This document shows, one piece after another, positions 3,448 through 62,400 of a DNA stretch of 64,000 nt. Source of the stretch: Echinicola arenosa (GTDB taxonomy: Bacteria > Bacteroidota > Bacteroidia > Cytophagales > Cyclobacteriaceae); contig NZ_JACYTQ010000001.1 in assembly GCF_014841125.1 (NCBI RefSeq), positions 1,178,001 to 1,242,000 of the forward strand, in the 5' to 3' direction. The position numbers and the translations under genes were made by a program. The notes beneath the pieces were generated by a model. That model was not told the DNA's origin and did no database searches. It saw nothing but the letters and a program-made list of their open reading frames with translations. Each line of letters opens with the position of its first letter. Positions within the stretch are counted from its first letter, which is position 1.

Positions 3448-3926
3448 AAAACAGTAATTCCCAACTTTCCCATGTGGATCAAGATGGCAAGGCCAAAATG
3501 GTCGATGTATCGGAAAAAGCCATCACACAACGTACCGCTACAGCCCAATCCATCGTTAAATTTCCAGAAACAGTATTCAAAACATTGAGTGCAGATAACT
3601 TTCTTGGAAAAAAAGGCAGCATCATTCAGACAGCTATCATAGCTGGAACCATGGCAGCAAAAAAAACATCGGACTTAATTCCACTTTGTCATCCCCTTGC
3701 CCTCAGCAAGATACAAATTGACATCACTCCAGAAACTAACCAACTCAAAATCCTCTCCTCTGTAAAATGTGAAGGAAAAACAGGTGTAGAAATGGAAGCA
3801 TTGACTGCAGCTAGTGTGGCGGCTTTGACCATTTATGATATGTGCAAAGCTTTGTCGCATGATATTATTATTAGCGAAACCAAATTAATGGCCAAAGAAG
3901 GAGGAAAACATGTATTCAACAGATGA
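3444..3926 (+). CDS. moaC: Cyclic pyranopterin monophosphate synthase MoaC
   Basis: 160-residue MoaC. It rearranges the MoaA product into cPMP. Signature stretches are HVDQDGKAKMVDV near the N-terminus, KKTSDLIPLCHPL in the middle and GVEMEALTAASVAALTIYD near the C-terminus, including the conserved Lys, Asp and His positions of the family. The start overlaps moaA by 4 nt and the end overlaps mobA by 17 nt, so it lies in a compact operon. Length is normal for a stand-alone MoaC. Confidence 0.96.
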   Translation: MKNSNSQLSHVDQDGKAKMVDVSEKAITQRTATAQSIVKFPETVFKTLSADNFLGKKGSIIQTAIIAGTMAAKKTSDLIPLCHPLALSKIQIDITPETNQLKILSSVKCEGKTGVEMEALTAASVAALTIYDMCKALSHDIIISETKLMAKEGGKHVFNR

Positions 3927-6900: not shown

Positions 6901-7263
6901 TATCATTGTTTCAGGTCTGAAGACTTATAACAAAACTTTCAGAGGTCACCAAGACCCGTCAGGTTCTTGCAGTTATCTGAAAAATCCCCTTTTCTTTTTA
7001 CACGATTTTTCTTGGTTAAAGTAGAAAGCTCAGGAGGCTTAAATACTTCCCAAATTAGTAGACCCCATAAAAAAGGTAAAATTAAGGTCACAATTATGTG
7101 AAATATTTTCTAAGACTTGTTCAAATACTTGGTCGCTATAATTCTTTTCAAAACTCATAAATTAAATATGAGATAAGTAATTTTTATCAAGGAATATAGC
7201 ATTGTCTTTATCATAGGCTCCTTTTCTTTTGGATCTGATTTTTACTAGCAGATTTGTCCAAAT
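6901..7263. other. Intergenic, 363 nt, no gene seen
   Basis: Lies between moeA (plus) and a convergent minus-strand lipoprotein gene. No convincing coding frame was found. Around 6940-6977 it carries GC-richer sequence with small inverted repeats (GGTC/GACC and AAGACC/GGTTCTT). This reminds me of dispersed intergenic palindromes common in Bacteroidota, but copy number cannot be judged from one window. Confidence 0.4.
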
Positions 7264-7869
7264 CTAATCTAAATATATTTCCTCTGGATAGTTTAGCGTT
7301 AAAAGTTGGACAGCCACTAAAAGAAATTCATCCTTGGATTGAAAATTAATTTTTTCAGGTTGCTTTAACACTAACATATTCATAGAAGGGGTATAATCTC
7401 CAGTATATTTAAAAGTCTCTCCATAAACATTGAGCTGGTTATGATTTTCGGTCAGTTTCAGAAGAAAGGAAGTAAATCTTCCTTTAGGGTTTATACACAG
7501 CCTACGCACATTTATCAGGCTATCTTCCCCTACTGACCTTTGTCCATCACAAAATATCCAAATGTCTTTAAAAAGTGACTTGTCAAAATTAGCTAAAAAT
7601 GACTGTCCTGATTTCTTGGATACTTTAAGATCTATTTCTTCATTAGCATTAAGCATTTTGAACTGATCAAAATATTGGTCAAAGCATTCCTCTGGTGTTT
7701 TAATACAGTTTCCCGAAATTTCGTTTTTAACAAACTGAGCCAGTTGGTCCAGTTCAGCTATTTCCTTATTGGAATAAAATTGAGCAATAAATTGGTCCTC
7801 ACGGTTGTTTTGCGCACAACCAAATAATAACATCAAAATTAGTCCTCCTATTACCCTATTCATATTCAC
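7264..7869 (-). CDS. Hypothetical lipoprotein
   Basis: 201 residues with a short signal peptide and a lipobox ending LLFGC (lipidated Cys about residue 18), so probably membrane-anchored on the periplasmic side. I recognise no family. The mature part is mixed and charged, with two further Cys in a NCIKTPEECFDQ segment and another two in the middle that could form disulfides. It is the first of several small minus-strand accessory genes and is convergent with moeA. No function is assigned. Confidence 0.7.
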   Translation of the reverse strand: MNMNRVIGGLILMLLFGCAQNNREDQFIAQFYSNKEIAELDQLAQFVKNEISGNCIKTPEECFDQYFDQFKMLNANEEIDLKVSKKSGQSFLANFDKSLFKDIWIFCDGQRSVGEDSLINVRRLCINPKGRFTSFLLKLTENHNQLNVYGETFKYTGDYTPSMNMLVLKQPEKINFQSKDEFLLVAVQLLTLNYPEEIYLD

Positions 7870-7915
7870 TTGTCTTTGCTAATGGTTCCTGTATAGCTTG
7901 TTAGACGTATTTAGA

Positions 7916-8554
7916 TTAGAACTTTACCGCATTGGTTGGCTTTTCAAAAGCCTTTTCTGAAACCTTATTTATCTTGATTTCAATTGCAGTCGAGATGAAT
8001 TTCATGTCTTTGTATTCCATAACTGACTTCAAATACATTGATTTTGTTTGTTCAAAGAGAGTATTGAAATGGCGATACTGATGCAACTCAAATGATGATG
8101 GATTAACAGGGAGTTGTTCAGAATAAAAGTAAGTCATCGAAAACCGACCAAAATCAAATTTTATTGATTTGCATTGATAACCACAAATTTCAACGAGTTC
8201 ATTAGATTTAATAATTTCGTCTGAATCACTTGAACAATTGAAGAATTAAATCTCTCCTGAAGTATAAAACATATAATAATTATTAGACATCTTGTTATAC
8301 AAAGTTCGAGTATATTCCTGGCCATGTGGAAATTCGTTTACAAAATTCCCTCTAGCATATGTCATTGTATTGATATTACCAAAAAGATTATAATAGTCCT
8401 GGTCTCTATCGGAAAGTCTCTTAGAGACAATTGAGTTTTCATAAGTTACTACCCCTTCAAAAAATTGCGTGGAACTACTTACAGGCTTGGAACTTCGGCA
8501 ACTATTCAAAATCACACCTAATATTAGAAATATGGATAAAATTTTCACTTTCAA
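7916..8554 (-). pseudogene. DUF4412/GLPGLI-like lipoprotein split by one in-frame stop
   Basis: One reading frame interrupted by a single TAA at 8246-8248. The first part (8249-8554, 102 codons) has a lipoprotein signal (LNSC) and begins the mature chain with FEGVVTYE, a typical opening of secreted DUF4412-like proteins. After the stop the same frame stays open for 36 codons before the next ATG (8137) and then 73 more codons to TAA at 7916. The downstream stretch contains EICGYQC, like the GYKCKK motif of that family. The full product would be about 211 residues. Read separately, the pieces look like two small hypothetical proteins. A disrupted gene is the simplest reading; sequencing error or readthrough is possible. 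Confidence 0.7.
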
Positions 8555-8684
8555 AATATTTAGTTTTAGCTCTGCCTCAAGAAGGTAATTACATCTAAAA
8601 ATTAGTCATTAGTATTTCAAATACTACAATTTTATTTAAATAAGTCTTCCGACTTTTACCAATAACAAATGACTGCAAAAACTT

Positions 8685-61866: not shown

Positions 61867-61867
61867 G

Positions 61868-61940
61868 TGATCCCGCTGGGGCTCGAACCCAGGACCCATA
61901 CATTAAAAGTGTATTGCTCTACCAGCTGAGCTACGGAATC
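61868..61940 (-). tRNA. tRNA-Lys (TTT), copy 1
   Basis: 73-nt cloverleaf on the minus strand. The acceptor GATTCCG pairs with CGGGATC (one T-G), with A73. Anticodon loop CTTTTAA gives anticodon TTT, and the T loop is TTCGAGC. No encoded CCA. Identical to the copy at 62328-62400. Confidence 0.95.
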
Positions 61941-62016
61941 ATTTTTTTCTCCTAAAGGTAGTTCGTTGACCTACCATCCCAATGACTATGGGGATACGGA
62001 ATCTTTGATAAAGAAG

Positions 62017-62038
62017 AAGCGGAAACTGCTTTCCGCTT
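62017..62038. terminator. Hairpin 3' of tRNA-Arg
   Basis: Perfect 9-bp stem AAGCGGAAA / TTTCCGCTT with loop CTGC, two bases from the tRNA-Arg 3' end. It may be a partial terminator or a processing signal. Confidence 0.55.
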
Positions 62039-62040
62039 TG

Positions 62041-62114
62041 TGATCCTGAAAGGACTCGAACCTTTAACCTACTGCTTAGAAGGCAGTTGCTCTATCCAGT
62101 TGAGCTACAGGACC
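62041..62114 (-). tRNA. tRNA-Arg (TCT)
   Basis: 74-nt cloverleaf on the minus strand. Acceptor GGTCCTG/CAGGATC with A73; anticodon stem ACTGC/GCAGT with loop CTTCTAA (anticodon TCT); T loop TTCGAGT. No encoded CCA. Confidence 0.95.
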
Positions 62115-62146
62115 GTTTACTTATATCTCAAAGTAACACTGGATTG

Positions 62147-62221
62147 TCGGGGTGGCAGGATTCGAACCTGCGACCTCCTGCTCCCAAAGCAGGCGCGATG
62201 ACCGGGCTACGCTACACCCCG
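62147..62221 (-). tRNA. tRNA-Pro (TGG)
   Basis: 75-nt cloverleaf on the minus strand. Acceptor CGGGGTG/CACCCCG with A73; anticodon stem CCTGC/GCAGG with loop TTTGGGA (anticodon TGG); T loop TTCGAAT. No encoded CCA. Confidence 0.95.
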
Positions 62222-62327
62222 TTAACTTTCCCCTATACTTTAATAAGGAATTTTATTTTGAGAATTCAAATTTAACAACTTAATTATTATATAATCAAGA
62301 TATTATCAAATTTAAATTTCAAACTTG

Positions 62328-62400
62328 TGATCCCGCTGGGGCTCGAACCCAGGACCCATACATTAAAAGTGTATTGCTCTACCAGCTGAGCTACGGAATC
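62328..62400 (-). tRNA. tRNA-Lys (TTT), copy 2
   Basis: 73-nt cloverleaf identical to the tRNA-Lys at 61868-61940. It is the first gene of the minus-strand tRNA cluster, and the flanking sequences differ from those of the other copy. Confidence 0.95.

Follow-up and report, generated by a model that had tools for sequence, protein, structure and literature searches.

A lipoprotein-like gene of Echinicola arenosa interrupted by one in-frame stop codon: a probable young pseudogene downstream of moeA

In the analysed window, i.e. the whole stretch of 64,000 nucleotides of the Echinicola arenosa genome, the minus-strand frame 7916–8554 is probably a young nonsense, loss-of-function pseudogene, a reading to which we assign a probability of about 0.83. 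A mutation would have turned codon 103 into TAA, and translation would now end after 102 residues and leave half of the sheet of the protein, a fragment that is expected not to fold, while a product started from the ATG at 8137 would be devoid of the signal peptide and the first strands. Function would thereby have been lost, probably under weak selection on the stretch in this lineage, as suggested by the variable gene content among sister genomes and by a second broken gene next to it.

The interrupted frame

Translation of 7916–8554 on the minus strand, a strand that the earlier note had not given, yielded 212 codons followed by a final TAA at 7916, with a single internal stop, i.e. the TAA of codon 103 (8248–8246). 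This agrees with the claim of exactly one in-frame stop with the same frame on both sides, and the 36 open codons with a GYQC motif described between the stop and the next ATG were likewise recovered, codons 104–139 being open up to the ATG at 8137 and GYQC occupying positions 125–128. All 109 codons past the TAA are open, an outcome with a probability of 0.0017 in first-order simulated sequences of equal composition, and 6–13 stops occur in each of the five remaining frames of this stretch; given the family match described below, the openness of these codons lies far beyond chance.

The frame begins with TTG at 8554, and no in-frame ATG was found between this codon and the preceding upstream stop, so that the TTG could reflect either weak initiation or a further lesion. 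Behind a hydrophobic stretch in the N-terminal fragment stands a lipobox-like LNSC (a motif recognized by eye), and the intact protein, of approximately 212 residues, would have been exported and probably lipid-anchored. The features of the locus are collected in Table 1.

Table 1. Features of the interrupted gene and its surroundings (positions within the window)
Feature	Position	Strand	Basis or remark
Broken lipoprotein-like gene, read-through frame, TTG start	7916..8554	-	Translation, relatives, profile scores on both halves
In-frame TAA, codon 103	8246..8248	-	Loop modelled with low confidence, joining strands 5 and 6 of the fold
N-terminal fragment, 102 aa, hydrophobic start and LNSC, 5 of 10 strands	8249..8554	-	Profile 48.2 bits, model
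Part past the stop (109 codons) with 5 of 10 strands; no signal peptide seen	7916..8245	-	Profile 86.2 bits, model
Segment with the broken gene, unmatched in DNA at the corresponding site of G007	7883..8683		DNA comparison
Intact 201-aa lipoprotein-like gene, no Pfam family	7264..7869	-	91 % identical in sister genome G007
Small gene for a hydrophobic protein, the second to be broken, stops TGA and TAG	6945..7214	-	Intact, 91 aa, in G007

Homology across the stop codon

Judged by sequence comparison, the frame from 8554 to 7916 is one gene and not two. Counting its own genome each time, the read-through protein matched 8 of 59 genomes of a first set, 47 of 390 genomes of the same family and 20 of 395 genomes across the phylum, with the best match (E 6.7e-20, residues 25–207) in genome G051; a first scan of genome contigs with this protein had found no relative, and its own genome gave one match at E up to 0.001. 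From the first-set and same-family searches 34 relatives were extracted, their starts being chosen by a script, and 33 of these run without an internal stop, while the remaining one, L014 of genome G154, carries a TAA of its own further along than that of E. arenosa. At least 50 residues lie on each side of the stop column in 32 of the 34, and 49 of 53 named loci show neither stop nor frameshift within the match. The intact homologue of about 211 residues that had been proposed as a check was thus found, at about 200–220 residues, the closest relative found being an intact protein of 200 aa in genome G525 (33 % identical over 207 positions).

Both halves belong to the same family. A profile from an alignment made with the window protein, whose row was removed before scoring, gave 48.2 bits on residues 1–102 and 86.2 bits on residues 104–212. 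In the 12-row alignment A1 the invariant columns are F32, G34, Y38 and Y86 before the stop and C128, L175, A190 and F203 after it, and the 34-row alignment A3 likewise has invariant columns on both sides. Relatives that continue through the stop and a profile matching both halves therefore support the earlier reading of a single, putative lipoprotein gene broken by a stop. Identities in the search tables were 33 % or less and the gene was absent from all 10 other genomes of the genus searched, so the data allowed no comparison of the states before and after the mutation and no dN/dS for this gene.

Predicted fold

The window protein had no match in Pfam at E up to 10 and fell below every cut-off among all Pfam and NCBIfam families tried. 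DUF4412 (PF14371) was matched weakly by three of the 12 members of A1 (best E 0.0065) and not by the window protein itself, and a PDB sequence search with A1 returned a single weak match (E 0.092). Our literature search found nothing on DUF4412 and little on the GLPGLI family. A model of the read-through protein built from 34 sequences (m1ee5f7c7cc30; pLDDT 83.3, pTM 0.78) has 10 strands, five on each side of residue 103, and resembles VioE, MucB/RseB, LolA and the first part of PNGase F-II. In a LolA-like fold an antiparallel sheet curves into a half-barrel and is accompanied by helices, and the model predicts this fold for the read-through protein, an assignment of fold and not of a function such as that of LolA, the carrier of lipoproteins to the outer membrane; the half-barrel may hold a hydrophobic ligand.

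Neighbouring genes and the variable site

The broken gene, the 201-aa gene and the small gene lie in that order on the same strand, in a small accessory stretch between moeA and a gene of 308 aa. The stretch is AT-rich, with a G+C content of 0.318 at 6901–8684 vs 0.408 for the window, and two of its three small genes are broken, the frame at 6945–7214 aligning without gaps to the 91-aa protein of G007 with 77 of 90 residues identical. At the site flanked by moeA and the 308-aa gene, G007 harbours four genes (231, 225, 201 and 91 aa) and G001 one 90-aa ORF, ORFs of at least 70 aa being absent in G009, while in G008, G003 and G010 moeA alone was matched. In three sister genomes (L051, L052 and L053) this spot is thus either empty or taken up by differing small genes of exported or membrane type.

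When the window was compared with G007, dS was 0.12 for the 201-aa gene and 0.18 for the 91-aa gene, vs 0.45–0.47 for the 308-aa gene and moeA. Two genes close by, at 3910 and 4503, show a dS of 0.21–0.22, however, so that exchange of the stretch between species is a possible reading of these distances. The 91-aa gene has a dN/dS of 0.33 against G007 with its stops left out, which may mean either that it decayed recently or that a shortened product is under selection. No clear mobile-element ends were found around the stretch, where we detected one direct pair of 22 nt (77 %) and four imperfect inverted pairs of 14–24 nt. Promoter-like sites numbered three, vs 7.5 expected, and terminator-like sites two, both on the plus strand, vs 0.9 expected.

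Of the 46 G007 ORFs of at least 80 aa, 38 had a counterpart of more than 60 % identity in the window, while eight were without a usable match; stops were seen in three of the 38, i.e. the 91-aa gene and two ORFs overlapping tRNA genes, and no other real gene was broken among these 38, which cover part of the window. In the reverse comparison, 35 of 44 window ORFs matched G007 (nine without a usable match), and three of the 35 show a stop in G007, each close to one of the protein's two ends. Four tRNA genes (Lys, Arg, Pro and Lys), overlapped by spurious ORFs, were located at 61867–62400 on the minus strand.

Internal stops in other family members

Several other members carry one internal stop and are otherwise open, i.e. 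a TAA in L014/L067 (G154), L061 (G538), L065 (G219) and L091 and a TAG in L128 (G1014), all at differing positions. An internal stop was found in one of 49 other rows of the same-family search (G154) and in one of 20 other rows of the phylum-wide search (G1014). A search of 132 rows had stops in 10: these were internal in the window's own row, G538 and G219, marked the protein end in G479, G201, G525 and G488, and lay before the start in G539. In G299, too, the protein (L026) ends in TAG at the flagged stop, and G424 has a late stop in a partial match, possibly due to a frameshift. Among 53 named loci four were flagged, L091 with one TAA, L117 and L118 with a frameshift and L122 with several stops, while L121 ends early.

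As a control we used the GLPGLI family, for which 80 places exceeded the cut-off and stops, though not frameshifts, were counted. None of the 80 had an internal stop, the sole flagged row (G137) having stops before its start. The excess over this control was not significant for 2 of 131 rows (P=0.53), a set with many weak or partial matches from which G424 was left out (3 of 131 with it, P=0.29), nor for 4 of 200 rows from the three overlapping searches (P=0.58). The named loci gave a significant excess, 4 of 53 (P=0.02) or 5 of 53 with L121 (P=0.009), in a set that was drawn differently, counts frameshifts and contains many metagenome assemblies. Frameshifts, multiple stops and differing positions fit an often-lost gene better than recoding.

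Alternative explanations

The earlier note had left a nonsense mutation, a sequencing error and stop readthrough all possible; they can now be ranked. An error of sequencing or assembly, which would leave the gene intact in the living strain, is compatible with a draft assembly of 20 contigs and with the family pattern kept by the rest of the gene in both halves. We nevertheless consider it unlikely: the absence of any other broken real gene among the 38 comparable ORFs suggests that stop-making errors are uncommon in the window, and the adjacent gene would need two further errors. Consensus errors that put an in-frame stop into one given gene are, moreover, rarer than pseudogenes. Of the three causes a real mutation is therefore favoured, since the neighbour is broken while no other comparable real gene is.

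Programmed readthrough or recoding of the stop would draw on the single internal stops of the other members, on their absence from the GLPGLI control and on the significant excess among the named loci, in so far as that set is comparable. Yet neither a conserved stop site nor a stimulating RNA structure was found: this column is free of stops in all 34 relatives, other members having theirs elsewhere, and the 115 nt of RNA from just before the stop fold no better than shuffled sequences (z 0.24). The frameshifted or multiply stopped members and the lack of a significant excess in the genome searches point the same way, as do the neighbour's TGA and TAG, with which two genes hold three different stop codons, and we regard readthrough as extremely improbable. 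The recurring single internal stops might also be taken to mean that the stop of this LolA-like family is read through or that the gene is switched off and on, to which we give just as little credence. A split into two functional small genes, a 102-aa lipoprotein and a 73-aa protein from the ATG at 8137, would use frames that are indeed both open, but homologues ending at this stop or starting at the ATG site, named beforehand as contrary evidence, were absent (none among the 34 extracted and none among the 33 aligned relatives). Moreover, the 36 intervening codons still match the family profile, albeit weakly (11.2 bits), and each part would be half of one fold, which makes such a pair very doubtful.

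Comparison with known systems

For annotation, reading the locus as a nonsense pseudogene would replace two short hypothetical proteins by one pseudogene and turn the small neighbour into a second one. The locus illustrates on a small scale the turnover and decay of accessory exported genes at a single spot downstream of moeA within the genus.

With the GLPGLI family (TIGR01200) of Bacteroidota the protein shares a similar length and export, and six of the 12 members of A1, the window protein among them, match it weakly (best E 0.0013); in contrast, the window protein itself reaches 11.1 bits (E 0.25) vs a curated cut-off of 50 bits. Likeness to the LolA/LolB/RseB-like fold is seen in the VIA-align comparison of the model with Porphyromonas gingivalis LolA (8cgm; Z 10.7, rmsd 4.0, 142 aligned), with LolA rows at Z 8.1–10.8, VioE at 11.2 and MucB at 11.0, while identities of 4–18 % in the rows shown and a Foldseek TM-score by query of 0.46 at best set it apart. 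From ordinary nonsense pseudogenes of accessory genes no difference was found, and the locus shares with them a single stop, a frame that is otherwise kept and a neighbour that is also broken; ordinary decay of dispensable accessory genes is the likely cause.
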